Shown here piece after piece: positions 3,001 through 56,601 of a stretch of DNA of 64,000 bases. How positions within the stretch are numbered: position 1 is the first letter of the stretch; each line of letters begins with the position of its first letter. The position numbers were made by a program, and so were the translations under genes. The DNA comes from Spirogloea muscicola. Taxonomy: Eukaryota; Streptophyta; Zygnematophyceae; Spirogloeales; Spirogloeaceae. The stretch spans positions 29,573-93,572 of the forward strand of contig WELB01000274.1 of NCBI GenBank assembly GCA_009602725.1. Reading direction: 5' to 3'. The notes under the pieces are model-generated. The model was not told the origin of the DNA, did no database searches, and was given only the letters and a program-made list of their open reading frames with translations.

Positions 3001-3762
3001 TGTGACATCTCTGTTCCTAATCACACAGTTAGGGTCAGAATGTCCTGTTTGGGTTTCGGACACAGGGTGTTTTGGAGACAACCCCCTTACAGAGTGGAAC
3101 GCCAGCGCACACAGCGCACACATACGCGCACAGAGCGCAGCGGAAGTCTTACCCTGAGGCACCGCCAGAAGGCGGCGACTCACCGAGGGTCAGCGGCTGT
3201 CCCCGCAAGGGGCGCGGCCATGGTACTTACAGAGAGCCGCCGAGGCCTGCAGCGACGAGCTGCGGCGACGGGCTGGGCAGCAGGCGGCAGCAGCAGAGCT
3301 GTGGCGGCGGCTGCGGCAGCAGGCAGCAGCAGGGCTGTGCCTCTCTTGCCGTCACGGGTCCGACTCCCCAGTCTGGCCTCTGCCTACGACTGATAAGCGT
3401 TCCATCTGCCACCCCTCCCCTGAGGGTGTGACGAGGGTCGCCCCGAAGGTCCTCCCCCGGAGGGGCGGGCCTGACAAGGGAATACGACGGACCTGCCGGA
3501 CGCTGCCGCGCGCGAGCGAAGCAGCGCCTGGCGGATGGAGACAACTCCCGGACTATGCCGCGCGCGAGCGAAGCAGCGCCTCTCGGACAGTACGACTGGC
3601 GGACGATACCGCGCGGTCCGAAGCCCGGGGTTTCGGACCGTACTTAGCTATACGGGGTGTAGCAGACTACCCGCACCGTTTGGGACTCCCAAACGGTAGA
3701 TACGACACGATCATGTTAGGTTACCGGCACCGTTGGCACTCTCAAACGGTGAGAACGTTACA
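3001..3762 (-). repeat. Family A LTR (3' LTR in element sense)
   Basis: Begins TGTGACATCTC and ends GAGAACGTTACA on the plus strand. It aligns base for base over most of its length with 10860-11627. It carries the conserved hairpin-plus-CTTCCGCTGCGC module near 3140-3180 (minus strand), a CAG/CTG-rich block, and a GC-rich duplicated block around 3490-3600. Confidence 0.93.
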
Positions 3763-5662: not shown

Positions 5663-8024
5663 GATTGACTACTACTTTTGGGGTCGACGCGAACCCTGTC
5701 TTTGCCCACATATGCCCTACTACTGGTGACATACACTCGGCAGACAAGTGATTCTCATGTTGCAAAGGCAGCACGAGCTGCAGGTGCAGTACGTGATCCT
5801 CGGGTGTCATACGAACACCGGTGTGTCATCCAAGTATACCAGCACAGAGTCATACTATGGGGCAAAGACTCCCACTGTCACAGCCTGACACGGGGCTGGA
5901 AGTGTGCGAGCGGCGCACGACAAGCTACCTCGGAACGTTCCCAGGCGTGATACAAAGGTGGTGATGAGCTCTCACAAATCGAGCAAGCAAAGCACGCTTG
6001 CTTCTCCACGACGATCACACAGATCATCAATGCCAAGCAGAGGGCATTGGCTCTTGACAGTGAGCTTGTCTAGAGCTCGATGCTGGATGCACATCCAACT
6101 ACTACCACAGTGCTTCACAAGGAAGCGGATAGGTGCACCATACAGTGACTTAGAGAGCTCACTATGCCCGTACTCTAGCAAGTCCGCCACTTGGGATTGC
6201 AGCTCTCAACACGCGAGAGTACTCAGTCGAGACAGCAGGCAGTACGGCGGCAGAGCGCCGGACGGCATTGAGCCACGTCGAATGAGGGGGCACCCGTCCA
6301 GAGGAGTTCGGAGAATACATCCAACTACGTCGGTGACTGATTGTCAAGAGCCGCACCAGGTGAGGCAATCACACGTACTACAGAGTCAGGGGGAGACTCC
6401 TTACTGATAATCAGAATCAGATACACAGCCGAAGCTGGCTGCGTGTGAAGGACATCTTCAACAACAGCTGTTGGTCGCAGAGTGCTAAGATGCTGTTCCA
6501 AAGCATCCGTCACAAGTCAACCCTTTGACTTTGACAGTGAAAAGGCGGAGACAAGCACTCACCCAGAGTACTCTGAGGCACTAGCCAGCTGCAGGCATCG
6601 AATGCCGGCAGCTTTCCAGCTATGAGTTCACAGGAATACTCAGCACTTAGCTGGACCAATGCTTCAATCTTCGCTATCCAGCAAGAGGGCCAACGTCACG
6701 GGCCACTCGGGCAGGACACCGAGACCCCACATGGTCTCGTAATACCCGCCAAGTGTGGCATGACACGTGGTCATCACAAGGGGTATACCAGCGAAGAATT
6801 GACCAAGCAGTGGCTGCAGAGGGCGTTGGCAAATCTGCCAAGCTTGGCTCCACAAGCTCACTCAACCCATAGCTGTGACATCACATTATCAAACAGCTGC
6901 AGAGAGTCAAGGACTGCCACTGGAAGTAGGTGAAGTGACACCGAAGGGCGACTGACCAGGGCCCAAGGCCTTGAGGTCGATGAGTGAAGCATTCCTGACC
7001 CTGAAGAGCACAGTCAAGGGTCAGTTAGTCCTTTTTGGTTTCGGTCGCTGGGGTTTAGAGACCAACCCCCAGCACAGAGAAGCACCACGTGTACTACGCA
7101 GCGGAATACCTTGCCCTGAGGCACCGCCGACAGGCGGCGACTCACCTCTCAGGTACGGGCCAGCAACTGTCTCCAGTGGGAGCAGCCACAGTCTACTTAC
7201 AACAGGAGAGCCGATGAAGATCCGCAGCGACGGGTTGCGGCGTCGGGCTGCAGCAGCAGGCAGCAGCAGGCCTGCGTGGACGAGCTGCGGCAGCAGGCGG
7301 CAGCAGGGCTGCGCGCCTCTCTCTCGCGTGGGCTTCACTGACTTGGACCGATTACCCTGAGCCTGGCCCTACTTGTAGTGCTGTCATGCGCGAGGGCGTC
7401 GATGCGAGATGAAGTCGATAAACTGATGTAAGGACAAAAGCTGACGTAAGCAAGCCATGTGATACACAAACCAAACAAGAAGTGGTTGCGTTGGCCAGGC
7501 TGCCAAGAAGACAGTCCGTCAGGAGACCAGCGCCACCAGTCGTTCATCTCAGGCAATGTCAACAAGGAAAAATTAGAGGTCCAAATCGGAACCTGTAACT
7601 TATCAAAGAGTGATCGGACAGACTCGGCTAGAGTAAGTAACCCAACTTGTGTGGCTTATAGATCAGACCACGGCTTTCGTAACGAAGTGTGTGGACCCCG
7701 GCTTGGTAACAAAGTGTTCGAACTCGGCTTTAGTGACAAGTGCTCGAACCCGGCTTTGGTAACCAATGTCCGGACCGCGGCTTTTGTAACCCGGCGTAGA
7801 TATGCAAGCATGCAAGATGCAAGAGCACTGACTCTAGCAACTGATGCAGCAATGTACTCGACCACGATGTCAGTACTGGGCAAGACACCGCAGACTTAAT
7901 GACCTCAACTGTCAGGTCTAGACAGACAGACAAACGATGGCAGCTCTGTATGCGAGGCTGCTCACCGCGAGTCTTCAAAGACTTCTCGCAGTCGTATGCG
8001 GGTCCAGGCTAAGCTCCACTGGCT

Positions 8025-9232: not shown

Positions 9233-10849
9233 GATGGCCGAGCCGACAGCGACATTCATCTTGGCACTGAATGCCAAGCACCATACGGCCAGCGCTTGGA
9301 GTGTGCAACTCAGCACAAAGCAGGGTGAGGACGCACCAGCCGCCAACACCGGAGGTACGGCAAGGCGAGTGCCAAAGCAGGATTCACCCATGCCGAGGCA
9401 TCACACAGTACCGATCTCACCACGAAGTCCACGACATCCATGGGCAGATAGCCATACTTTAGGCCAGCTTAGAACGGGTTGTACCACACCAGGGCCCATG
9501 TCTCACACACTAGACAAATGGGTACTGGCCAGCTCTTAAACACAGCAGCACAGCTGATAGCTGATATGCAGGCCATGTTGGGCGGTTAGTGGCACACAGA
9601 CCACTTGTTGCCCAGATACTTTGCCAAGTGAATGGCATGCTGTACATATGGTCAATGAGCTTGAAAGAAGTTCCCGTTATATGAGATCCCCAGGGGTGGA
9701 CTTCTTCACCGGAGCTTGCCACAAGGCAGGGTCCCACACAGAGAGGTGGTCACATGTTCCACGCGGGATGTGAAAGGTGTGCCGTACAAGCAAGCCATAC
9801 CTCTATCTCAAAGTCAGGTGTTGAGGCTGCTCCTGGTTGCTTTCTAGCCGACACGGCAGGTGGAGATGGCTGGGCACGTCCAGTCGCAACTCCAGCAGCA
9901 ACACAAACAGGTAGACATGGCTAGTAGAAACGGCTGGACACACCCCAGTCGTGACTACGGGTGCAGCAGGTGGAGACAGTTGGGCACATCCAACCGAAGC
10001 TCCGGCAGCACCAGGCACTTAGCCGACAGAAGATGCAGGGATTGCTCAGCCCACAACAGGGGCGAGCAGATTGCACACCTCATAGCAACCAACTCCCACA
10101 AACGGGCTTTACGACCAGGTCTCCTTGGACCAGCAGCCTCATACTGCTCCAACAAGCGCACAACGCGCTGCGCCTCCTTGGAGTCGGACGTCCAGGGATG
10201 GCAAGTGGAGCCCCGACAGCTCATCAAACCACTGCCTTGACTTTAGCAGGTTGAACAGCCGGCAGAGGGGGACTAGGTGGCGCGCTTGAGTCAGCCGACT
10301 CCATGCCTTTACGCCAACACACTGAGGGATCGAGTCAGTGGCAGCTATAAGACATATGCTGAGACAATACTACCACAGAGTTGCTGAGCAAGTCCCGTGC
10401 TTTAGGCAGGCATAGCAAAACATGATAGCTCGCCAGATCATACCCCCAAACAGCAAAGCTGTAAAAGCGGACCGAGGGAGGGCACCAAGCGAGAGTACAG
10501 ACCAGCGCCTGGCCGACAGTCAGATTGCCGCCCACCTGCAGCACCGGGTGCTATGCCGTGCTTCATAGGCCAGCTACACACCGGGCACAGGTGGTTACGC
10601 AGGCGAAATACTGACCAGGCAATGAAGGTTGCCGCCGAAAAGAAGAGCCACTCAGCATCTTGAAGACCCGGTGCTTGGATGTCGAAGGCGAAAGGGTGGC
10701 ACACTTGCCGCTTCGCCGATGACGACTCCACGTACACACTGGAAAATTTCACGCTTACAGAGAAAAATTAGTCCAGCATTCAGAAGGATCCTTGCACTGT
10801 CAGCAGTAGAACACAACCTTCTACGTGACTGGCTAGATGCAAGAACTCC
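9233..10849 (-). other. Family A gag and leader remnants
   Basis: On the minus strand around 9955-10227 the peptide SKEAQRVVRLLEQYEAA resembles PAEVQRLVRLVEQIANA in the C-element gag (22685-23308) and AGEVQRIALLMQDHAAA in the D-element gag. This supports a gag identity. The leader next to the primer site (10560-10850) matches the leader at 37180-37480 of another A copy. Degraded fossil. Confidence 0.65.
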
Positions 10850-10858
10850 CTGATACCA
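10850..10858 (-). other. Primer-binding site of element A
   Basis: CTGATACCA on the plus strand is TGGTATCAG on the element strand, complementary to the 3' end of initiator-Met tRNA. It sits one base from the LTR at 10860. Confidence 0.9.
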
Positions 10859-10859
10859 A

Positions 10860-11627
10860 TGTGACATCTCTGTCCCCAATCACACAGTTAGAGTCAGAAC
10901 ACGTCCTGTTTGGATTTCGGACATAGGGTGTTTTGGAGACAACCCCCTTACAGAGTGGAACGCCAGCGCACACAGCGAACACGTACGCGCGCAGAGCGCA
11001 GCGGAAGTCTTACCCTGAGGCACCGTCGGAAGGCGGCGACTCACCGAGGGTCAGCAGCTGTCCCGGCAAGGGGCGCGGCCATGGTACTTACAGAGAGCCG
11101 CCGAGGCCTGCAGCGACGAGCTGCGGCGACGGGCTGGGCAGCAGGCGGCAGCAGCAGAGCTGTGGCGGCGGCTGCGGCAGCAGGCAGCAGCAGGGCTGTG
11201 CCTCTCTTGCCGTCACGGGTCCGACTCCCCAGTCTGGCCTCTGCCTACGACTGATAAGCGTTCCATCTGCAGCCCCTCCCCTGAGGGTGTGACGAGGGTC
11301 GCCCCCAAGGTCCTCCCCCGGAGGGGCGGGCCTGACAAGGGAATACGACGGATCTGCCGGACGCTGCCGCGCGCGAGCGAAGCAGCGCCTGGCGGATGGA
11401 GACAACTCCCGGACGATGCCGCGCGCGAGCGAAGCAGCGCCTCTCGGACAGTACGACTGGCGGACGATGCCGCGCGGTCCGAAGCCCGGGGTTTCGCACC
11501 GTACTTAGCTACACGGGCGGGGTGTAGCAGACGACCCGCACCATTTGGGAATCCCAAACGGTAGATACGATACGATCATGTAAGGTTACCGGCACCGTTG
11601 GCACTCTCAAACGGTGGGAACGTTACA
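10860..11627 (-). repeat. Family A LTR (5' LTR in element sense)
   Basis: Starts TGTGACATCTC and ends GGGAACGTTACA. It is the partner of 3001-3762. The GATAC duplication follows at 11628-11632. Confidence 0.93.
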
Positions 11628-13131: not shown

Positions 13132-14004
13132 TGTAACGTCCCGGCCGTTACGGGACGCTTCACTCCGAGATAAGCGCTACCGTGTAACCACTGACGCGCA
13201 CGTGCCTGACGCGTGCGACGCGCGAGCGACCCGCGCAAGGTGTCGCGCGGTGTGACGCGCCTGCTGACGATGTGACGTGCAGGCGCGGCCGCCTCCAGCA
13301 GAGGTGGCCAATCCTGGACTTCCGGAGAGAAGCTCCTCGGCATATTCTGGTATCTGCCGACACACCCGTAATGACGTGTATGTGACACGTGTGGCGCGCC
13401 CGTGACGCCGCGCCACACCCGTGACGCACTGGCGGCGCCGCAAGCCGCCGCCGCAGGGCGCCACCGCTCGGCGGCGCCGCCGCTCGGCGGCGCCGCAGGC
13501 TGGCCGCCATTGGCCGCCACTGGCCGCCACTTCCAGAAGGAAGCCGCGTGGCCTGGCCACGTACTAGATTCCCCTTGTCGGGCTCGCCTCCCCAAGGTGG
13601 GCCCTGAGACGAACCTCCCAGAGACCCCTGGGAGGGTGGCACATGAACTCCAAGTCAGTCCACGCGAGAGAGAGGCGCGCAGCCCTGCTGCCGCCTGCTG
13701 CCGCAGCTCGTCCACGCAGGCCTGCTGCTGCCTGCTGCTGCAGCCCGACGCCGCAACCCGTTGCTGCGGATCTTCCCGGCTCTCCTGTAAGTAGACTTTG
13801 GCTGCTCCCACTGGGGACAGTCGCCGGCCCGTACCTGAGAGGTGAGTCGCGCCGCCTTTCGGCGGCGCCTCAGGGCAAGGTATTCCGCTGCGTAGTACAC
13901 GTGGTGCCTCTCTGTGCTGGGGGTTTGTCTCAATACCCCAGCGACCGAATTCAATAAGGACTTACTGACCCCTGACTGTGCTCTTAAGGGTCAGGAACGT
14001 CACA
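13132..14004 (+). mobile_element. Solo LTR, family C (C4), TSD CAAAG
   Basis: Starts TGTAACGTCCCGGCC and ends GTCAGGAACGTCACA. The duplication CAAAG lies at 13127-13131 and 14005-14009. Sense is plus: the conserved hairpin GCGCCGCC-TTT-GGCGGCGC and the TTCCGCTGCG box lie at 13840-13895. The second hairpin (GGGGTTTG...) lies near 13920. It is inserted in the antisense LINE tail. Confidence 0.92.
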
Positions 14005-14414
14005 CAAAGTATGGTCTCCTCGTCCAGGTCCGCCCCTCGGGGGGAGCCATCACCTCGTACAGCTCCGCCCCTCGCGTTGGGCTTACCCTCGTGCAGGCCC
14101 GCCCCTGGGGTGGGCCTTGGAGACTTCTCGTATTTGTAATCCCTTGTAACGAATGCTGTGGATCGCCAAGCCCCGGCTGCCGGCAGAGCGAGGTGTAGCG
14201 GGGAAGGCATTGAGTCGGGGCTGCAACGGTAAATGAGCAACGCTTACTGCAGGGGCAAGGTTCCAGGGGTCTGAGGGTAGGTAAGGGGCAAGGTTCTAGG
14301 GGTCTGAGGGTGGGTGAAGAACTCACCCCCCTTTCCATCTCGGATTCCCTCTTTATAGTCCGACGGACTGCGAACCCGCCATACGGGCCAGGGTGGGATA
14401 ATTGGCACCCACTT

Positions 14415-15985
14415 TGTAGTGACTCGACCCCTGTAGACAGGCAATAAGGCGGTCAAGTCCTGATTGGGTTCGGATACAGGGATACAGGAGCAGATTCCCA
14501 CACCGTGAAGCACCTCGCGCCTCAGTGCGCAGCGGAAGTCTTGCCCTGTGGCTCCGCCGTCAGGCGGCGTCTCCACCTCTCGGGCACCCGCCCGCAGCTA
14601 GCCTCCCAAAGGCCGGCCACAGACGCCTCGCAGCTAGTCGCCCGCGTCCTGCCGGCGACGGGCTGCGGCAGCAGGCGCAGCAGCAGGGCTGCGCCTCTGT
14701 CAGGGCTTCACAGATCCGAACTGGTGTCCGTGTCTCTGCCCCCAGACTCTTAGTGCTCCCGGTGCCGCCCCCCCTCCAGGGGCGCATGGGGATTGCCCCA
14801 AGGCCCACCCCGAGGGGCGGGCCGAAGGAGGCCTACCCCGAGGGGCAGACCTATCGAGGGGTAGGCCCGCCCCGCAGGGCGGGCTGAACGAGGTCCACCC
14901 CGAGGGGCGACCTCTCGGAAGGCCCCACGCCAAGTGTAAAGACCCTGACCCTTAAGAGCACAGTCAGGGGGGTCAGTAAGTCCTTATTGGTTTCGGTCAT
15001 TGGGGTTTAGAGACAAACCCCCAGCACAGCGAAGCACCACGTGTACCGCGCAGCGGAAGTCTGAGGCGCTGCCGACAGGCAGCAGCTCACCTCTCAGGTA
15101 CGGGCCAGCGACTGCAGTCACAGTCTTACTCACAGAGAGCCGATGAAGAACCGCGACGACGGGATGCAGCGACGGGCTGCAGCAGCAGGCAGCAGCAGGG
15201 CTGCTTCGGCGGGCTGCTGCGGCAGCAGGCGGCAGCAGAGCTGCGCCTCTCTCTTGCGGGCTTCAGTGATGTTGACCGGGTGACCCGAGTCTGCTCTCAG
15301 CCCTACTTGTACTGCTTCACGTGCCACCCTCCCCAGGGGTCTCTAGGAGGCTCGTCTCAGGCCTACCTTCGAGAAGGCGGGCCCGACAGGGGAATTTAGT
15401 GAGGGCGAGCCACGCGGCTCCATTCCGGAGGCGGCGGCCGTCCTGCGGCGCCGCCAAGCGGCGCCCTGCGGCGCCGGCTTGCGGCGCCGCCAGTGGGTCA
15501 CGGGTGTGGCGCGGCGTCACGGGCGCGCCACACGTGTCGCATACACGTCATTGCGGGCCCGGCGGCAGATTCAGGAATATGCCGAGAAGCTCCGCTTTGG
15601 AAGTCCAGGATTCGCCACCTCTGCTGGAGGCGGCGCGCCTGCACGTCACATCGTCAGCAGGCGCGTCACACCGCGCGACACCTCGCTCCGGTCGCTCGCG
15701 CGTCGCACGCGCGTCGCGCGCGTCAGGCACATGCGCATCATTGGTCACACGATAGCGCTTAACTCGGAGTTAAGCGTCCCGTGACGGCGGGGACAATACA
15801 CCAAGGGTGGGGCCGACCTGTCGGACCGGCCCACGCTGGGTTCCGACCTGGCGAGGCGCGCCAAGGTGGACACCGCGCCACCGAGGCCCTCGTGCGCGAC
15901 CACCTGGCCAGGCCAGGTCGGCCACGTGCCGATCAGGTAAGCGTAACCATCTGGGTTAACGCTCACAGTAAGTGGGAACGTTACA
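14415..15985 (-). mobile_element. LTR family H, nested in G, holding C3
   Basis: Starts TGTAGTGACTCGACCCC and ends TAAGTGGGAACGTTACA. The flanks CACTT (14410-14414) and CAGTT (15986-15990) look like an aged 5-bp duplication, and G sequence continues across them. The conserved hairpin CGCCGCC-TGA-CGGCGGAG with the ACTTCCGCTGCGC box lies at 14530-14590 on the minus strand. Without C3 it is about 700 bp. Confidence 0.82.
14935..15800 (-). mobile_element. Solo LTR, family C (C3), TSD CCAAG
   Basis: Starts TGTAAAGACCCTGACCC and ends GGCGGGGACAATACA. The duplication CCAAG lies at 14930-14934 and 15801-15805. It is the innermost of a three-deep nest (G, then H, then C3). Its hairpin stem differs from other C copies by a paired change (see findings). 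Confidence 0.92.
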
Positions 15986-18611: not shown

Positions 18612-19223
18612 TGAAGCATCCCTGACCCTTAAGACACAGTCGAGGGTCAGTTATGTCCTGATTGAGTTCGGTCATTGGGGTTTTGAGACAAACCCCCAGC
18701 ACAGCGAAGCACCACATGTATCACACAGCGGAAGTCTTGCCCTGAGATGCTGCCGCCAGTCAGCTGCTCACCTCTCAAGTGCGGGCTAGCGACTGCAGTC
18801 ACAGAGAGCCGATGAAGATCCGCCACGACGGGATGCGGCGACGGGCTGCGGCAGCAGGCAGCAGCAAGTCTGCCTCGGCGGGCTGCGGCAGCAGGCGACA
18901 GCAGGGCTGCGCCTCTCTCTCTCGCGGGCTTCACTGAGATTGACCGAGTTACCCGAGTCTGCTCTCAGCCCTACTTGTAGTGCTTCACGTGCCACCCTCC
19001 CCAGGGGTCTCTGGGAGGTTCGTCTCAGGGCCCACCTCGGGAAGGCGGGCCCGACAAGGGGAATCTAGTACGTGGCCAGGCCACGCGGCTTCCTTCTGGA
19101 AGTGGCGGCTTGTGGCGGCAATGGCGGCCAGCCTGCGGCGCCGCCGAGCGGCGCCCTGCGGCGGCGGCTTGCGGCGCCGCCAGTGCGTCACGGGTGTGGC
19201 GCGGCGTCACGGGCGCGCCACAC
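18612..19223 (-). repeat. Family C LTR, left copy of the C element
   Basis: Starts TGAAGCATCCCTGACCC and follows the C consensus through the CCAGGGGTCTCTGGGAGG block to the GCGCCACACG block, then meets pol sequence. Confidence 0.8.
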
Positions 19224-20153
19224 GTTGAAGCAATTCGGCAGTCGTAGGAGAGCGTGCCTTACTGCGCTGGCAGGTGGCACAAGTCTTCACAAAAGACTTC
19301 ACTTGGACTTTTGAGTTCGGCCACCAGAAGAGAAGCTGGACAGCTTTCTTTGTCTTTCCCATACCCAAATGACCACCATACGGAGGCTCATGCAGTTCTT
19401 GCAAGATACTGCTGCGCAAGGCATTGCAGTCAGGGACTACAATGGCGTCACCTCGCCATAGAAAGCCTTGGTCATTTACCAGTGTGCGTGTATTGGTTTC
19501 ACCTGCAAACCATGGGTCTGTGCCATGCCCATCACAAATGCGCACATACAGCTCAGAGAGGTTGGCGGTGAACTGTCGAGCAGCTCCACGAGTAGGTCGC
19601 ACGTCTGCGGTCTGAACCCTTGAAGCGTGCAAGACAGCCGCCACAGCAGCCCCTGCCAATGTTGCGGTTCACCGTATCCGCAACATTCATATTTACAGAG
19701 CGGTACAATCACTGGAAACGGAATGTGGCCATGCAATTAGCAATTAGCTCACTGTGCTTGACGCCTGCTCGATTGCAGTTGTGTGCGACAGTAGGTCAAC
19801 GGGCAATGACCCGATACAACCGTACATGCGACACCCACGAGACTGCAGCGCCACACAAGTATGGCTTGCACAATAGCAAGGAGCTCTTGCTCTTTCATAG
19901 CGAAGTTGCGCTCTGCAGGACAAGGCAGGCTGCCTTCAAATGCTACAGGGTGACCCTCCTGCAAGAGAACGGCACGAGTGCCGATCAAAATAGGCGTCAC
20001 TACTAAAATGGCTAGCCTTCTCGAGGCAAGGCCAAAACGGGGGGGGGGGGGTGCACCAGGACCCGTTTTCATATCCTCAAATGCGCTCTGGCATTTGGAC
20101 GTCCACACCCAGCTGACGTCCTTACGAGTGAACTTCGTAAGAGGAGATGCCAT
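19224..20153 (-). other. C-element pol remnants: RNase H and integrase zinc finger
   Basis: On the minus strand 19749-20153 reads MASPLTKFTRKDVSWVW, the RT-RNase H joint, and later KEQELLAIVQAILVWRCSL. Then 19207-19659 reads the integrase N-terminal zinc finger: PPYGGHLGMGKT ... FVKTCATCQRSKARSP, with the conserved His and CxxC. The order supports Ty3/gypsy. Degraded fossil. Confidence 0.85.
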
Positions 20154-20861
20154 ACTTCCGTATTCTTACAGAAACTTACGGAAGGGGTTTTGCGAACTCC
20201 AAGAAGGAACGCAATGGTACATTCCGTGGCACATCGACAATTACAGTCCTTTACTACTTGGTGCGGTTGACGCGAACCCCGTCTTTGCCCTATAAAGGTT
20301 CCGGCTGGTTATACACATATTTGGCATACGGTTTGCACTCAGCGATTGCAGTACATGCTGCAGGTGCGGTGCGTAAACCTCAGGCGTTTTACAGAATACC
20401 AGTCTGCCTTTCACTTGAACCAGCACAGAGTCACACTTTAGGGGGCCAAAGACTGTCATCATCACAACCTGACACGTGGCAAGTGCTTTTGGTGAAACCA
20501 AAACGGAGCATGTTGCAGCAGAAGTAGCCGAGCGGCCTGCAACAAGCCAAACGGGACTTCCTCAGGTGTGAGATGAAAATGGTCATCACCACTTTGCAAA
20601 GCGGGGGGGAGCTATACACATGAGCTCCCGCAAGACGATGTTACAGATCATCAATGCTGAGCAAATGGCATGCTATCTTGACAGTGAGCTCGTTCAGAGC
20701 TTGTACTCGATGCACATCCAAAGATTCAGCCTACTTTACAATCAAGAGGATGGGTGCACCGCACGATAATTGTCGAGTCATACCATGTGAGAATACAACA
20801 CTCAGAGCAGAGTCAGGGGGAGACTCTGTGCGCATCATCACAATGAGATACTCAGCAAAGC

Positions 20862-25278: not shown

Positions 25279-26097
25279 TGAAACGTTCCTGACCCTTAAG
25301 AGCACAGTCAGGGGTCAGTAAGTCCTTATTGATTTCGGTCGCTGGGGTTTAGAGACAAAACCCCAGCACAGAGAAGCACCACGTGTACTACGCAGCGGAA
25401 TACCTTGCCCTGAGGCGCCGCCGACAGGCGGCGACTCACCTCTCAGGTACGGGCCAGCAATGTCCCAGTGGGAGCAGCCACAGTCTACTTACAACAGGAG
25501 AGCCGATGAAGATCCGCAGCGACGAGTTGCGGCGTCGGGCTGCAGCAGCAGGCAGCAGCAGGCCTGCGTGGACGAGCTGCGGCAGCAGGCGGCAGCAGGG
25601 CTGCGCGCGCCTCTCTCGCGTGGGCTTCACTGACTTGGACCGATTACCCTGAGCCTCGTCTTAGCCCTACTTGTAGTGCTTCATGTGCCACCCTCCCCAG
25701 GGGTCTCTGGGAGGTTCGTCTCAGGGCCTACCTTCGAGAAGGCGGGCCCGACAAGGGGAATCTAGTACGTGGCCAGGCCACGCGGCTTCCTTCTGGAAGT
25801 GGCGGCCAGTGGCGGCCAGTGGCGGCCAACGGTGGCCAGCCTGCGGCGCCGGCTTGCGGCGCCGCCTGTGCGTCACGGGTGTGGCGCGGCGTCACGGGCG
25901 CGCCACACGTGTCACATACACGTCATCATGAGTGTGTCGGCAGATACCAGAATATGCCGAGGAGCTTCTCTCTGGAAGTCAGGAATCCGCCGCCTCGGCT
26001 GGAGGCTGCGCGCCTGTGCGTCACATGGCTGACAGGCGCGTCACACCGCGCGTCATATCGCGCTGTTAAAACGTTACGTAACGGTGGGAACCTTACA
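25279..26097 (-). repeat. Family C LTR, 5' LTR of the C element
   Basis: Starts TGAAACGTTCCTGACCC and ends GGTGGGAACCTTACA, with the primer-binding site (GATACCAA, 25271-25278) directly to its left on the minus strand. The hairpin GTCGCCGCC-TGTC-GGCGGCGCC is intact. Confidence 0.88.
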
Positions 26098-26291
26098 CAG
26101 ACCCTCTGTGAGGTCGCTGCCTTCTGGCGGCGCCTCAGGGTAAGACTTCCGCTGTGCTATAAGATGCACTTGAGTACACCGTGTGCGTTGGCGCTCCACT
26201 ATTTAGGGGGGTAGTTCCTAAACCCCCTAGGTTCGAACTCAATAAGGACGTACTAACCCTTAATTGCGTGTGTAGGGATCAGGACGTCACA
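26098..26291 (+). mobile_element. LTR family B, 3' part, plus strand
   Basis: Matches 36028-36221: the hairpin block GCCGCC/TTCT/GGCGGCGCC, the second hairpin TAGGGGGG...CCCCCTA and the end GATCAGGACGTCACA. Confidence 0.75.
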
Positions 26292-31076: not shown

Positions 31077-32562
31077 TGTAAGGAACCTCGCCCCTACACA
31101 CACATTTAGGGTGAGTTGTCCTTCTTATGTTTGGCTGTAGGGGTTTAGGAGCAAACCCACTACACGATGAAGCACTAGCACATAGGCGCAGCGGAAGTCA
31201 GGCCCTGTGGCGCCGCCGTCCGGCGGCGACTCCACCTCCTGGGTGCAAGCAGCAGCTCTTCTCCCACGGGGCGCAGCCACGGACCCACGGCAGCAGCCCC
31301 ACAGCAGGCTGCGGCGGCGGCTGCGGCGGCAGGCAGCAGCAAGGCTGCCCTTGGGCTTCACTGGTCCGAAGTACTGTCGGGTCTCAGCCGAAGGCTCGTA
31401 GTGCTTCCCCCGTGCCACCCCACCTCCTTGGGTGTGAGCGGGTTGCCCCATGGCCTGCTGAAACGTTCCTGACCCTTAAGAGCACAGTTAGGGGGTCAGT
31501 AAGTCCTTATTGATTTCGGTCGCTGGGGTTTAGAGGCAAATTCCCAGCACAGAGAAGCAACACGTGACTACGCAGCGGAATACCTTGCCCTGAGGCGCCG
31601 CCGACAGGCGGCGACTCACCTCTCAGGTACGGGCCAGCAACTGTCTCCAGTAGGAGCAGCCACAGTCTACTTACAGGAGAGCCGATGAAGATCCGCAGCG
31701 ACGGGTTGCGGCGTCGGGCTGCAGCAGCAGGCAGTAGCAGGCCTGCGTGGACGAGCTGCGGCAGCAGGCGGCAGCAGTACTGCGCGCCTCTCTCTCGCGT
31801 GGGCTTCACTGACTTGGACCGATTACCCTGAGCCTGGTCTCAGTGGTGCTTCAGGTGCCAACCTCCCCAGGGGTCTCTGGGAGGTCCATCTCAGGGCCCA
31901 CCTTCGAGAAAGCGGGCCCGACAAGGGGAATCTAGTACGTGGCCAGGCCACGCGGCTTCCTTCTGGAAGTGGCGGCCAGTGGCGGCCAACCTGCGGCGCC
32001 GCCGAGCGGCGCCCGGCGGCGCCGCCTGGCGGCGGCGCCCTNGGCGGCGGCGCCCTGCGGCGCCAGCTTGCGGCGCCGCCAGTGCGTCACGGGTGTGGCA
32101 CGGCGTCACGGGCGCGCCACACGTGTCACATACACGTCATTACGGGTGTGTCGGCAGATACCAAAATATGCCGAGGAGCTTCTCTCCGAAAGTCAGGATT
32201 CGCCACCTCTGCTGGAGGCGGCCGCGCCTGCACGTCACATCGTCAGCAGGCGCGTCACACCGTGCGACACCTTGCGCGGGTCGCTCGCGCGTCGCACGCG
32301 CGTCGCACGCGTCAGGCACGTGCGCGTCAGCGGTTACACGGTAGCGCTTAACTCGGAGTTAAGCGTCCCGTAACGGCGGGGACGTTACACCTGCCCTGCG
32401 GCGGGCCAAAGGTCCACCCTTGGCAGCTTATCTGGCGAGGGTTCTTCCAGGACGGGCGGGGCCCGCCCGCCACATGGACGAGCCACGTGTCCATCAAGCG
32501 GCTAGTGGCCATGTGATGCTAACAGCACCGTGTGGCATAACCAAACGGCGGGTCGTTACACG
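31077..32562 (-). mobile_element. LTR family D, minus copy, holding C2
   Basis: Starts TGTAAGGAACCTCGCCCC and ends AACGGCGGGTCGTTACA. Flanks CGACC and CGATC resemble an aged duplication. The block CCCAGGAGGTGGAGTCGCCG with its hairpin lies at 31205-31250 on the minus strand. Confidence 0.8.
31459..32389 (-). mobile_element. Solo LTR, family C (C2), TSD CCTGC
   Basis: A 931-bp unit starting TGAAACGTTCCTGACCC and ending GGCGGGGACGTTACA, with CCTGC at 31454-31458 and 32390-32394. It contains the single N at 32042 in a GGCGGCGCC-rich block. Confidence 0.93.
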
Positions 32563-32989: not shown

Positions 32990-33205
32990 GTAGCGTTTGG
33001 TCCCTAAGGCAGGTCAGAGTCGAATGCGTCCTTATTGTGAATGAGTGCTTGAGGATTTAGGAACAACCAACCGCCGCGAGGAAGCACTCCGACACAGCGG
33101 AAGACTTGCCCTGTTGTGCTGCCGCTAAGCAGCAGCTCCACCCTTAGGCACCCGCTGCAGACTTACCTCCCGCGGGACGCCGCATTCGGCCGCCGAGCTT
33201 GAAGC
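32990..33205 (-). mobile_element. LTR family F, partial copy
   Basis: Starts TGTAGCGTTTGGTCCCTAAG and matches the first 215 bp of the F LTRs, with the GAGGAAGCACTCCG block. It sits between the integrase and RNase H parts of element E. Confidence 0.75.
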
Positions 33206-37642: not shown

Positions 37643-38664
37643 TGTAGTGAAACAGCCGTTTGGTTAAGCCACATGGCTCTGTTGGCATTACATGACCAAT
37701 TAATTGGGCCAGGTGCCCTGCCAGCTGCCAGGCTGGCTGGTCGGTGGCCCGCCCGGGTGCGGGTCCCGCCCGTCCGGAAATACCCCTGAAGGATCCGCCC
37801 GGCCAAGGGAGGATCTTTGGGCCTGCCGCAAGGCGGGCCTTGGGGCGAACCTGCTCACACCCCTGGAGGGGGGGTGGCACGGGGAAGCACCAAGGAGCCT
37901 CAGGGGCTGAGGCTCATCAATCAGTTCGAGCCGAGGAAGCCTTGGAGCAGCCTTGCCGCTGCTCGCCGTCGCAGCCGACGCCGCACTGCGCTGCGGGGCC
38001 TGCTGCGCCGGCCTGCGCCCAGGAGCTGGAGTCGCCGTCAAGGCGGCGCCACAGGGCCTGTCTTCCGCTGCGCTATGCGCTAGTGCTTCCTTGTGTAGTG
38101 GGTTGGCCCCTAAACCCCCTATGCTCGAATACAATAAGGAATCTCTCCCTCTAACTGCGTGTTCAGGGCGAGATTCGTTACAATTGGTATCAGAGGCGGT
38201 CTTGCATCTATCGTGCTTGTGACTTCTCGTGCTCGCTGATGATGCAAGGATCTCCTTGATATACTGGCCTGATTTTTTTCTGTCAAAGTTGAAGTGCTTG
38301 CCAGACGTTGGTCCCTGGGACGGCTCCGCAGAAGCGCCGGGTGCTGCGTCATCCTTGCGCTGTGAGCCGGCGACCAACGCCAGATTGCAGACTGATCCTT
38401 GAGGCCACTTGCTGCGTTCGCTACTCTTGAGGTGAAGCTTGAGCTTGCAGTCTTGTGTGGTGAGATCAGTCGTGTGACCAGCATTGCTTGTGAGCATCAG
38501 TCTTGGTCACATCGCGGCTGTCTGCCTGCCTGCGGTGGAGTTGCGCGCTGCCTTGCTTGCTCGCTCGCTGCTGCGGCAGTCTCACGCACCTTGTATTGCA
38601 GTGTGGCGTGTGGGCTCTGCTGACTGTCGGAGCTGTATTGATCCGTCAGTGTCCCTCAGCCAAG

Positions 38665-50299: not shown

Positions 50300-52015
50300 C
50301 ATCGGCCCCCGTCTGAGAGCCACTTCTCGGGACGGCCCGCCGCGAGGGACGCCACGCTAAGCCCATGTGGCTGTAACGTACTGCCGCCATCGCGGTACCT
50401 CGCAGCTGGGGAGGGTGCCCCCCAAACCAACACCTCCCCCGCAACGTCACCTCCCCTTTGCCTTACCTGCACTGTGGAAGACGTCCTCCGCCGTCTAAGC
50501 CCAGCTGCTCGCGCCGCGGCCAGGCCAGGCCGCCGCGAGGCCGCCGCAGCAGGAGAGGCCCCATGGCTTCTGCGCGGCCGCCGCTGGCAGCGTCTGTGCC
50601 TCTGCTGCTGGTCGCCCTCGTTGCGCTCTCGCTCCACGGACGGGGCTCTGGCAGGTGGGCTGCCCGGAGCTCCCCGTCCGCAGCACTGGCTCTCGCTGTC
50701 GGGCTACCTTCGAAAACGACCCTCTGGCTGCTTCCCGAGCGGTGCTTTGTCCACGACTAACGTGGCCATCATCTGGGTGTAGCAAGAGTCCGTCCCAAGC
50801 GCTCGTCCTTCATGGGCTGGCAGAGCTCAAGACACCAGCATTGGTGTGCTGGACACTCGCTGTTACAGCTGCTGCAACTTGGCGCATGTGAAAAGGTCCC
50901 TCCTCAAGCTGGCTCAGTCTGCTTCCCATTCCAGGTCCTGCACGCGCCATTCTGCATGCAGAGGAAAGGCCGTCCACATTGAAGTAAGGAGTTCTTCTCG
51001 GCTTTTCCTCTCCTTGCTTCTGCATAGCACGCTGCCTGCCTTGGTCTCACTAAGCATCAGACTAGCCCAACGTTGGAGCCTGCTCTAGCAGTTGACTGCT
51101 AGAGCTGGGCTGACTTTGTCCTACCCTCACGGCCTTGTTGACTCTGATATGAGCAGCGTTCGCCAATTGCTGTGACATGTACTTGGCAGGTTGAGCCTCA
51201 CTCACATTGACTCACCTCACTCGCCTCTCCGGAGAGAGTGGCCCAGCAAGGAGTACGCATACAGGTTTCGGTACTACAGCGACAAGGTAAGAAGATATGC
51301 AAGTGGCAGATAGTACTTGTCCAAATGCATCACTTGACACCTACTTTGGCTCTGCTTGTAGCCCCTTGCAACGACTACCAGGCCCTGCATTGCTGAACAG
51401 ACATCTTCTTCTCATAACACTTCATATAGTCCAATCACCAACTGCCCGCTCTCAGAGAACGTGTAAGTTGGCTGCTTGTGGAGTTGTTTACTACTCTTTA
51501 TACAATCTGTTGCAATTCATCACGACTCTAAGCATCTTTTGCTTAGAGATTACTGCACCTTCTGCAGGCAAGATCGGAGAGCTTGTATCACCTGATGACT
51601 AGCAAACAGCCAAGACGACATCCAGGAATTAGGACCCCTTCTTTGACGCGACCAAAGCTTGTGTCGGGGGCGCACAACACCACGACCACGAGATCATTCC
51701 AGGAGGCAGCGCTCCAAGTTGTCGAGGAAGCTTTCAACACGACAGTCCATTCAGGATACGGCGTTGGAATTGGAGAATACTTTGCAGACGTCGGCTTGGG
51801 CGACCCAGCCCAACCACAGACTCTTTGTGTAGATACCGGCAGCGATCTAGTGTGGACTCAGGTTGCACCAGCACGTTGACTTTGGCACCAGGCTTTTGTT
51901 TGAATTGCTCTCCCGCCTGCATGGACTCGATGAAGGCCAACAGCACTTTTGGTTAAGCAATTGCAGAGCTAAAGTTTGATGTGATAGAACCTCCCTAAAG
52001 CACCTCATTGCAGCG
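50300..52015 (+). repeat. Segmental duplication, left copy (partner 53365-54690)
   Basis: Starts near GAGAGCCACTTCTCGGGACG and shares exons and introns with the right copy up to the intron after the DTGSDLVWTQ exon (CACCTCATTGCAG). About 400 bp present here (roughly 50450-50860, with the signal-peptide exon) are absent from the right copy. Confidence 0.9.
50563..51861 (+). pseudogene. Secreted plant-type aspartic protease, left copy, 5' exons only
   Basis: Pepsin-type (A1) proteases use two Asp residues in DTG/DSG motifs to cut proteins, usually in vacuole or wall. Exon 1 (50563-50654) encodes the signal peptide MASARPPLAASVPLLLVALV. A short exon lies at about 50935-50983. The next (51190-51286) reads LSLTHIDSPHSPLRREWPSK, the typical propeptide start of plant nodulin-41/CND41-like proteases. 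The last (51568-51861) ends VDTGSDLVWTQ before a donor GTTGCA and holds the first catalytic Asp. Similarity to the right copy stops at 52015 in the following intron, and LINE tails follow, so the second catalytic motif and C-terminus are missing. The splice phase between exons 1 and 2 does not close with the donor I chose. Confidence 0.75.
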
Positions 52016-53364: not shown

Positions 53365-54690
53365 CAGCCCTCGCCCCCACTTCTGAGAGCCACTTCTCGG
53401 GACGGCCCGCAGTGAGGGACGCCACGCTAGCCCATGTGGCTATAACGGACAGCCGCCGTCGCCGTAGCCCGCAGCTGTGGCGGGTGCCACTCCAAACCGA
53501 CACCTCCCCCGTGACTCTCTGCTGCAGCTGCTGCGACCTGGCCCATGTGATAGGTCCCTCCTCAAGCTGGCTCAGTCTGCTTCCCATTCCAGGTCTGCAC
53601 GTGCCATTCTGGATGCAGGGGAAAGGCCGTCCACACTAAAGTAAGGAGTTCTTCTCCGCTTTTCCTCTGCTTGCTTCTGCATAGCACGCTGCCTGCCTTG
53701 GTCTCACTAAGCATCAGACTAGCCCCAACATTGGAGCCTGCTCTAGCAATTGACTGCCAGAGCTGGGCTGATTTTGTCCTACCCTCATGGCCTTGTTGAC
53801 TCTGATATGAGCAGCGTTCAGCGATTGCTGTGACATGTACATGGCAGGTTGAGCCTCACTCACATTGACGCACCTCATTCGCCTTTCCGGAGAGAGTGGC
53901 CCAGCAAGGAGTACGCATACAGGTTTCGGTACTACAGCGACAAGGTAAGAAGATATGCAAGTGGCAAATGGTATGCGTCCAAATACGTCACTTGGCACGT
54001 ACTTTGGCTCACCTGTCTGCTTGTAGCCCCTTGCAACAATTTTCAGGCCCTGCATTGCTGAACAGACATCTTCTTCTCACAACACCTCATATAGTCCAAT
54101 CACCAGCTGCCCGCTCTCAGAGAACGTGTAAGTTGGTTGCTTGTGGAGTTGTTTAGTAGTGTTAACACAATCTGTTGCAAACATCACGACTCTATGCAAC
54201 ATCTGCTTATAGATCACTGCACCTTCTGCAGGCAAGATCGGAGAGCTTGTATCACCTGATCGCTAGCAAAGAGTCAAGACGACATCCGGGAAACAGGACC
54301 CCTCCTTTAACGCGACCAAAGCTTGTGTCAGGGGCGCACAACACCACGTCCACGAGATCGTTCCAGGAGGTAGCGCTCCAAGTCGTTGAGGAAGCTTTCA
54401 ACACGACAGTCCATTCAGGATACGGCGTTGGAATTGGAGAATACTTTGCAGACTTCAGCTTGGGCGACCCAGCCCAACCCCAGATTCTTTTTGTAGATAC
54501 CGGCAGCGATCTAGTGTGGACTCAGGTTGCACTAGCACGTAAACCCTGGCAGCAGGCTTTTGTTAGAAATGCTCTCCCGCGTGCATTGGACTCGCTGGAG
54601 GCCAACAGCACTTTTGGACAAGCAATTTGCAGAGCTAATCGATGTGATAGAACCTCCACAAAGCACCTCATTGCAGCTGGTGGTGTGCAA
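53365..54690 (+). repeat. Segmental duplication, right copy
   Basis: Partner of 50300-52015. It begins with the GAGAGCCACTTCTCGGGACG block at about 53380. The exon-1 region is missing. The shared introns are as similar as the exons, so the duplication was made in DNA and is recent compared with the LTR nests. Confidence 0.88.
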
Positions 54691-56601
54691 GGACTTACCT
54701 CCTCTGACATCTCTTCCTGCTGCAGTGCTTGCCCTGCTTCGATTGCTATGATCAAGCGGGACCCATATTCGATCCCGCTCTGTCGTCAACCTTCTCTGTC
54801 ATTGGTTGCAACGATTCAACTTGCCTATCCCTTGGATATGACTACCAGTACGAGTTTTGTTACTACTTCGGAGGATCTGACTGCGAATACACCTACAGGT
54901 ACAGCTTTGTGAAGTTGGAGGCAGTGTAACTTGTAGATTGTTTAATTGCATCATCTGCATGGCCAGCGTGGCCAACATTCAACTCTTTCGACCCTCTAAA
55001 TGTTGCGCTGTTGATGTATCCTAGTCTGAGATACATCAGTCCATGGCAGGAGGATATTAGCATACGTGCTGAGCCATGCATCTCGAGTGCATGCAGTTAT
55101 GGAGACATGTCATACACCTCGGGTCAATTGGCAAATGAGACGGTCTGGCTAACAACCACCACTGGCGATAGTGTACGCCTCTTGGGGACAACCTTTGGTT
55201 GCGGTCACGTCAATGTTGGTAGCTTCGACTTTGCAGGGGGCCTCATTGGCCTTGGACGGGGGCCATTATCCTTCGCTAAACAGGCAAGTCTCTGCAAGTC
55301 AAGGAAGCATTGCCAGCTGCAGCAACTCTGTGACTGGAATAGGCCCTTCGATGCCATGCATGTGCAAGCCAGTGAGCTTGCACGTCGGTTGCAACAAGTG
55401 CTCCTTGGTTCTTTCACAGCAACCTTGCCCGCTTTTGTATGTTAGTGAACACTGCGATGCTTGATGATACAGTGAACAGGACTTGTTTGATAAGCTGTTC
55501 ATTTCTCACTGCTGCACCACTGCTAATTCGATGTTTACAATCTACTCCGATCTGCAGCTGGAGCCTTATGACCATGTATTTACCCTGTGCCTTCAAAGCT
55601 GGTATGCCGATTACCTTCCTCCGAGCGAGTTGGAGTTTGGGTCCGCTGGAGTGCCGAGCACGGGCGTCACATACACTCCAATCCTCGACAACCCCGTCCT
55701 GGATGAACTCTTTGGGTACTCTACCTTCTATTACGTGCAGGTTAATGAGATACTGTTTGGAACAACCTCAGTCAGCATCCCTGCGGCTGCTTTTACCTTC
55801 GACTACTTTGGTGGAGGGGGGACAATCTTTGACTCTGGGACAAGCTTGATACTGTGAGTGATGCTGCTGCTTGCCTTCTTGCTGCCATGCTTAAAGCAAT
55901 CACAAAAAGGGAGAAGTGTCAATTCATGAGCATGTAGCGCGTGTCTCGCTTTGGCTGGCTTTTCTGACTCGTACTTTTCTGACTCATAACTGTGACTCAG
56001 GCTGCTGAGTGATGTATACCGACCCATTATCGATTATCTGAATGCCAGCGTACCTCTGCCCAGGTAAGCGTAGAGTACTGCATTCTCGTAATGTGCCATC
56101 AATCATGTGCTCTTGACATTGCAATTATGCCAACTTGTGATCTGATTGACAACGCCTGACGCTACCGTGCCACGTGCATTGGACAGCTGCTGCGAGTAAA
56201 AGCACAACTGCAGTGAGCAGTCCAGCTGTCATCATTTGCCTAAGATTGATCGTGTTGCATCAGAGAGAGAGACACATTTGGTGCACTGCGTTACGAGCTT
56301 TGCTGGAACATCGCCGGAAGAGTGGCCAGTCAAAAGGACATCGACCAGCTGGGCGTCTTTCCCTCCCATGACCATCCGCATGTCAGGGCCGGCCGACTTC
56401 ACGCTCCCCCCTGTGAACTACATCGCCCTGGTGACTGATACTGTAGTCTGTGCAGTTTTCGTGGAATCGAGCTACTATAACATCATCGGCAACTATGCAC
56501 AGCAGAACTTCCTGATGGTGCACGATCTGAACCACACCATGGTAATGGCTCAGGTCCCATACCACAAGCTGCTCAGTATCAAGGCTGCTTGTGCATGCTG
56601 A
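53848..56601 (+). CDS. Plant-type aspartic protease (A1), right copy
   Basis: Seven exons join in phase: 53848-53944, 54232-54525, 54726-54898, 55097-55283, 55558-55853, 56001-56063 and 56214-56601 (stop TGA). Order: propeptide LSLTHIDAPHSPFRREWP; first catalytic site VDTGSDLVWTQ joined to CLPCFDCYDQAGPIFDP; flap YSYGDMSYTSGQLANETV; FGCGHVNVG and GLIGLGRGPLSFA; second catalytic site GGTIFDSGTSL; FPPMTIRMSGPADFTLPP; C-terminal IIGNYAQQNFLMVHDLNH. These are the landmarks of plant nodulin-41/CND41-like proteases. Both catalytic Asp residues and paired cysteines are present. The intron after 55283 has a GC donor (CAG/GCAAGT). No signal-peptide exon is found: it was lost with about 400 bp from the duplication. 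A short exon near 53593-53640 matches the left copy but is one base shorter. The protein may be made without a signal, or from the left copy's promoter. Confidence 0.85.

Follow-up and report, generated by a model that had tools for sequence, protein, structure and literature searches.

Why should LTRs of several families carry the same hairpins around the same short box? The question is raised by a DNA stretch of 64,000 nt of contig WELB01000274.1 (the window), whose left 38 kb is filled by nested LTR elements, and it was followed in this study through a genome of 153 Mb in 471 contigs. A RuBisCO small-subunit exon has a better match to chains of land plants than to those of Chlamydomonas, which places the host among the streptophytes. 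We found that a module of a hairpin (P1), a box, CTTCCGCTGC, and a second hairpin (P2) is common to several related Ty3/gypsy-type LTR families. Judged from sequence comparison, the module is probably a structured 3' end of the LTR that would help Ty3/gypsy-type elements to capture and place the primer of reverse transcription.

The pol fragments in the window are Ty3/gypsy-like by their domain order, with RNase H preceding integrase in sense and both on the minus strand. The features that define the host elements are the following:

18612-19225, minus strand: family C LTR beside the integrase fragment
19207..19668, minus strand: open frame with an integrase zinc-binding domain (PF17921), adjoining the family C LTR
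19752..20165, minus strand: open frame with an RNase H domain of reverse transcriptase (PF17917), preceding the integrase frame in sense
31459..32391, minus strand: solo family C LTR of 933 bp with the module in its last ~170 nt; TG...CA ends and a 5-bp target duplication, GCAGG, on both sides (read by eye)

The integrase and RNase H frames share their strand with the C LTR at 18612-19225, which confirms the sense orientation that had been assigned to the LTRs in the preliminary description. The ends and target duplication of the solo LTR, one case read by eye, are as expected of an LTR retrotransposon. At its U3 end, from 32391 downwards on the minus strand, the C LTR opens with a palindrome, TGTAACG...CGTTACG. 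Elsewhere in the window, a 491-aa stop-to-stop frame with a reverse transcriptase domain (PF00078; 46169-47644, minus strand) perhaps belongs to a LINE-like element. A 1.2-kb direct duplication, ~91% identical, lies at 50855-52014 and 53514-54677; the latter copy overlaps an open frame matching TAXi_N (aspartic protease-like) at 54166-54912.

Read in sense, the last ~170 nt of the LTR hold P1, the box, P2, a stretch with CCGAA and AGGAC, P3 and the LTR end; in some module copies the primer binding site comes after the LTR end. P3 is a third hairpin, added in this study, which ends a few bases before the LTR end (~10 nt in the focal copy). The focal copy (13843-13942, plus strand) lies in a family C LTR. 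The box is called the D-arm box below, after its complementarity to nt 10-21 of the host tRNA-Met, which we assign to the D arm by general tRNA anatomy. The copies in the window are:

13843..13872, plus strand: hairpin P1 of the focal copy (TGAG, inner CGCCGCC, loop TTTC, GGCGGCG, CTCA)
13882..13893, plus strand: focal box, ATTCCGCTGCGT, complementary to tRNA-Met nt 10-21 (one end mismatch, one G.U)
13916..13942, plus strand: hairpin P2 of the focal copy (GCTGGGG ... CCCCAGC)
13965..13994, plus strand: hairpin P3 of the focal copy (CTGACCC ... GGGTCAG)
3135..3146, minus strand: D-arm box CTTCCGCTGCGC, family A LTR
7096..7107, minus strand: D-arm box of copy C1, whose P1 stem has one G.U
10848..10858, minus strand: primer binding site of the family A LTR of the next line, one mismatch to TGGTATCAGAG (position computed from distance)
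10996..11007, minus strand: D-arm box CTTCCGCTGCGC, family A LTR, primer site after the LTR
14527..14538, minus strand: D-arm box, family H LTR
15050..15090, minus strand: copy C3, partial box and P1 with GCTGCC/GGCAGC
18723..18734, minus strand: D-arm box CTTCCGCTGTGT, C LTR beside the integrase fragment
25390..25401, minus strand: D-arm box, family C LTR
26146..26157, plus strand: D-arm box, family B LTR
31186..31197, minus strand: D-arm box, family F LTR
33092..33103, minus strand: D-arm box, family D LTR
38062..38073, plus strand: D-arm box, family F LTR
38185..38196, plus strand: primer binding site TGGTATCAGAGG after the family F LTR of the previous line

Several elements of the preliminary description were borne out. 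The box recurs in the window, with 16 occurrences at up to 3 mismatches vs 0.07 expected in shuffles, and the order of first stem, box and second stem holds in sense orientation. The named stem variants are also correct: GCCGCC/GGCGGT in C1 (7130-7150), GCTGCC/GGCAGC in C3 (15070-15090), and the focal copy as described. The first stem exists but is longer than claimed, with seven inner pairs and an outer stem that reads TGAG/CTCA in family C and GTGG/CCAC in F, H and D. The second hairpin is present with the GGGGG/CCCCC type described, except that family D pairs as AGTGCTT/AAGCACT. The GCTGCC/GGCAGC stem had been assigned to family F and belongs here to copies named D (33113, 29636). The CCGAA and AGGAC stretches between the hairpins are conserved as well. 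One recent shared insertion copied between families, named earlier as an outcome that would speak against the claim, is unlikely because the P2 and P3 stems differ strongly between families.

Three short motifs near the module were observed in addition. The foot of P1 in family C reads AGGTGAGT (window 13840-13847, plus strand) and resembles a 5' splice site. Upstream, the 5' splice site-like CTGTAAGT (window 13785-13792, plus strand) recurs, and in 12 of 33 C copies GTAAGT precedes the box by 80-99 bases. A YCGAANYC-like conserved stretch between P2 and AGGAC resembles a tRNA T loop.

Genome-wide, the box pattern was found at 316 places exactly and at 171 places with up to 2 mismatches of the C form (reversed controls 0), and the CCACAGGG form with up to 2 mismatches at 1,326 places (reversed control 0). 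From the window and 228 loci among the matches listed, 304 modules were cut, while 11 more lay too near an end. Unique and N-free were 276 of these (181 unique modules in an earlier pass), and after removal of 22 outside the named clusters and 11 without the AGGAC anchor, 243 were kept (C 88, A/B 74, F 56, D 17, H 8). The blast clusters used here merge the families A and B of the preliminary description, and the C3 copy, having lost part of its box, stands outside the aligned set. Copies were selected by the box and not by the stems, and contigs of low number are over-represented in the set, drawn as it is from the matches listed. Each subfamily medoid is a real copy: 20 were taken from 87 clusters at distance 0.12, excluding 67 single-copy clusters, and 14 from 58 clusters at 0.15. 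The listed module copies cluster in a few zones per contig (contigs C2, C38, C46 and others; e.g. C46:65-115 kb) as nested LTR blocks, and these crowded zones are possibly centromeric or heterochromatic.

The stems of P1, P2 and P3 vary but tend to keep their pairing. In an arm-swap test with the 20 medoids, only 0, 4 and 7 of 10,000 permutations paired as well as the own arms (P1, P2 and P3, respectively; the 5' half of P2 overlaps the box in some families), and four control pairings gave 757, 835, 7,605 and 136 of 10,000. Tree-simulated evolution attained the observed gap 0, 2 and 1 times per 100. The result was weaker for P2 (180/10,000) and P3 (969/10,000) at the coarser cut of 0.2, and when each family was represented by a single copy, permutations equalled or exceeded the own arms in a median share of 0.033, 0.096 and 0.042 (P1, P2 and P3). 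For the 17 pairs of P1 and P2 in the 20 medoids, 87.7% of the cells were paired vs 82.3% in shuffles, and the covariation score was 0.253 vs 0.156 (0/500; slid structures at most 0.159); doubly changed pairs and pair types were not above shuffles (187/500 and 142/500). All 136 lettered cells of inner P1 were paired in these medoids, with 10 G.U and no A.C. P2 columns 123-158 hold T-A in 11 medoids and C-G in 6, with 3 cells unpaired, and columns 124-157 hold A-T in 5 and T-A in 4, with 5 cells unpaired. Tests within single families against the same kind of null (15 family-by-hairpin combinations) gave p<0.05 for pairing in 6/15 and for the covariation score in 2/15. A generic covariation scan (APC-corrected G-test over column pairs with a tree null), R-scape-like and close to the check proposed in the preliminary description, found no pair with E <0.05 (best E 0.38), and its top scores mostly separate families.

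What the box might do is suggested by the host tRNA-Met. A tRNA pattern search of the genome gave 6 places, 3 of them exact, and ARAGORN called tRNA-Met in 3 of the 4 examined; these three genes are identical over 72 bases. ARAGORN places the gene at 21-93, one base longer than the 21-92 used here, to which CCA was added. We take the gene to be of the initiator type, judged by the plant initiator tRNA. The box CTTCCGCTGCGC is the exact reverse complement of nt 10-21 of this tRNA, and TGGTATCAGAGG is the exact complement of its 3' end with the added CCA. Across the boxes of the 20 medoids, 220 of 240 positions form Watson-Crick pairs with nt 10-21, 12 form G.U and 8 are mismatched, 6 of these 8 being one terminal base of family C. 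The longest exact complement to the tRNA averaged 10.86 bases in 14 medoids vs a maximum of 8.50 with 200 shuffled tRNAs. The box served as the search anchor, so that its conservation in the collected copies is partly built in, and only the counts that start from the primer site escape this.

An exact 11-base search found a primer site after 33 of the 243 modules, and 33/33 fit the tRNA-Met end over 12 bases. With up to 2 mismatches, a primer site stands within 210 nt after 35/203 modules vs 1/203 in an upstream control stretch; modules that lack one are presumably solo or 3' LTRs, or decayed. The genome holds 399 exact TGGTATCAGAGG sites vs 8 for the reversed control. The 8-base core TTCCGCTG stands upstream of the exact primer site at 166 places at 92-122 bases and at 57 places at 123-153 bases (reversed control 0), so that 223/399 primer sites carry it 92-153 bases upstream; at the remaining 176 the box may have decayed, or the site may come from another family. 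For the T arm, the longest complement in 17 stretches after primer sites was 6-8 bases, and AAGGTTC or AAGGTTTC, complementary to part of the T arm, stands ~50 bases past the primer site in 6/17; a T-arm contact in these elements would be weak at best. In 14/17 stretches, of C and F type, a fourth hairpin, CTTGCAT/ATGCAAG, was observed 4-60 bases past the primer site (e.g. window 38200-38250, plus strand, and L002, L009 and L027).

These findings lead to a mechanism with two contacts on one tRNA-Met of the initiator type: its 3' end would pair with the 12-base primer binding site after the LTR, and its D arm (nt 10-21) with the conserved box, some 100-150 bases upstream of that site. The hairpins, P1 and P2 on either side of the box and P3 beside the LTR end, would most likely shape or present both contacts. 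An isolated fold that holds the box open was considered and is not supported, as the mean unpaired value of the box in isolated-module folds is 0.30 vs 0.36 for all windows. Access to the box would therefore require a chaperone, and in Ty3 nucleocapsid is described as helping annealing (PMC5371799, excerpted text).

Packaging, dimerisation or reverse transcription had been offered as possible functions of the RNA structure, and the D-arm match of the box points to the last of these, through capture of the primer tRNA. That the hairpins are leader structures for packaging or dimerisation, with the D-arm match incidental, seems unlikely to us, though three co-evolving hairpins do precede the primer site and roles of this kind are discussed for the structured 5' leaders of retroviruses, Ty1 and Ty3 (PMC4974528, PMC11381356; excerpts). 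P1 of one A/B subfamily, CACCGCCCTAGGGCGGTG, is a perfect palindrome that could dimerise, but the P1 loops in other families are not palindromic (by eye). A 12-base match to the very tRNA that fits the primer site is hard to call incidental, and 223 of the 399 primer sites have the core of the box upstream. Packaging or dimerisation and a tRNA contact can coexist.

The direction of the stem changes bears on whether the pairing is selected in RNA. Tip branches show 28 changes of inner P1 from Watson-Crick to G.U, 29 to A.C and 29 to mismatch. On deep branches (at least 5 descendants) we found only 7 changes from Watson-Crick to G.U and 6 back (one-sided Fisher 0.0007 against the tips; 0.011 for G.U against A.C alone), with the depth split chosen after the first event table and with back-and-forth steps on nested branches among the 13 events, so that fewer are independent. 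Shallow internal branches (2-4 descendants) carry 6 changes to G.U, 5 to A.C and 1 to mismatch, and P1 within families, on branches with at least 4 descendants, shows 4 G.U, 1 A.C and 2 mismatches. Within families, P2 and P3 have no bias for G.U over A.C. The sense fold beats the antisense fold for P1 and P2 (11/14 medoids each) and for P3 in only 5/14; for P2 and P3 the idea that strand bias generally proves a sense RNA was discarded. With 28, 29 and 29 changes on the tips and only G.U steps on the deep branches, the decay of dead copies is even, and the deepest lineages pass through G.U on the sense strand, which is the pattern predicted by selection on a sense RNA.

The T-A pair of C3, cited in the preliminary description as the compensatory change, is also present in L018, L051 and the window copy at 18744. 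It occurs in 4/233 parsed C, A/B, F and H copies and consists of CpG transitions on both sides. The reconstruction for family C leads from C-G through the mismatch C.A (4 copies) to T-A (3 copies); for family D, where T-A is the norm, it leads from C-G through T.G to T-A, on deep branches. CpG change by itself was retained as the explanation of the cited example but rejected for P1 as a whole on account of the deep-branch changes. Paired change is real but uneven. The proposed past selection on RNA structure is supported, mainly by the arm swap with its tree null, the pairing of the medoids and the deep-branch G.U steps; the example on which it was first built is weak.

The same data speak to a role at the level of DNA, in which P1 is a transcription-factor dyad site like the Sirevirus CGG-CCG repeats and the box another promoter element. 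In Sirevirus LTRs, motifs built on CGG-CCG cores have been described as cis-activator-like dyads (PMC2829016, excerpt), P2 and P3 lack strand bias within families, and on shallow P1 branches A.C is almost as frequent as G.U. We nevertheless consider this role improbable: a DNA dyad should treat G.U and A.C alike, whereas the deep inner-P1 changes are all G.U on the sense strand. The box, CCGAA and AGGAC stretches are conserved too, P3 lies among the final bases of the LTR, and the box is complementary to the primer tRNA.

A control of polyadenylation or promoter activity, with P2, the CAATAAGGAC-like box and P3 as a poly(A) module of the R region, is in our judgement quite improbable as well. 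An AATAAG-like box stands between P2 and P3 in many copies, and conservation in long R regions has been linked to stem-loops (PMC3601003, excerpt). This control would leave the D-arm box unexplained, and in the scan upstream of the box (0-700 bases) no position with a TATA-like or AATAAA motif was common to 25% of the copies in any family of useful size, the exception being one AATAA in 4 H copies. A mutational artefact, in which CpG decay and template-switch correction of imperfect palindromes yield paired changes without selection, is very improbable, for while the cited T-A change, the neutral-looking tip branches and the negative generic scan would suit it, the deep branches of inner P1 lack the A.C and mismatch steps that the tips make as often as G.U, and family-level pair changes exceed one CpG (e.g., P2 columns 123-158 and 124-157, with some cells unpaired). 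Known ribozymes and other Rfam families were rejected, with no match to Rfam models at gathering scores over the window and only 4 below-gathering hits in 13400-15700.

At the level of sequence, the anatomy, the exact complementarity, the genome-wide co-occurrence and the co-evolution of the arms are established. For primer capture to follow, the box would have to be transcribed where needed and to pair with the tRNA in the cell, annealing would need the hairpins and initiation would depend on the box, whose place of action may be the 5' end (R or U5) or, Ty3-like, the 3' end (U3). On balance, we lean towards a primer-docking RNA domain in a streptophyte Ty3/gypsy clade, in which covarying hairpins would hold a D-arm-complementary LTR segment, so that a single tRNA would be gripped by this segment as well as by the primer site; under selection for this contact the box would have stayed nearly fixed and the stems would have turned over, those of P1 via G.U steps. 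If true, a D-arm contact in more than 1,000 copies of a plant-lineage element would make double gripping of the primer tRNA wider than yeast elements and retroviruses, to which the excerpts of the cited literature assign bipartite or extended primer sites. It would also explain a strongly conserved LTR motif, and the dead copies and master lineages, compared, would form a natural record of selection on retroelement RNA.

The comparisons with known systems rest on excerpts of the cited sources. In titles and abstract openings of the open-licence literature, no D-arm box or bipartite primer site in plant LTRs was found, nor such a module in work on LTR RNA structure, algae or packaging. Structured leaders and bipartite primer sites are known in kind; within those limits, neither the position of the D-arm segment nor its frame of hairpins nor its spread across several families of a streptophyte clade is previously described. 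Helenus and Cassandra-type LTRs likewise resemble small RNAs, tRNA or 5S (PMC10886601), but there the likeness lies in sense Pol III promoter boxes, whereas here ~12 antisense bases match and ARAGORN called no tRNA gene within the window. The HIV-1 primer activation signal and its tRNA-Lys3 contacts share the structured leader with a second primer-tRNA contact (PMC3185550), although HIV-1 uses another tRNA and its T loop or anticodon region, not the D arm. Divided primer sites to which initiator tRNA-Met anneals are described for both yeast elements, Ty3 and Ty1 (PMC5371799); Ty1 shares with the elements studied here a divided site for the same tRNA-Met. Ty3 of Saccharomyces shares the Ty3/gypsy type, initiator tRNA-Met, a 5' primer site with a distant segment and the D-arm contact, which in Ty3 involves U3 (PMC5371799); the annealing in our elements is predicted. 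The second segment of Ty3 is in the 3' U3, ~4800 nt away, whereas here the D-arm box lies roughly 100-150 nt before the primer site, in the LTR, and the T-arm segment is weak or absent; a box that proved to belong to U3 would act from the 3' end, like the segment of Ty3. Both parts of a bipartite site, the primer site for the tRNA-Met 3' end and the segment complementary to a second arm, were matched by sequence. This suggests that the module is a structured second primer-tRNA contact, like the bipartite primer site of Ty1 and Ty3 but differently placed.
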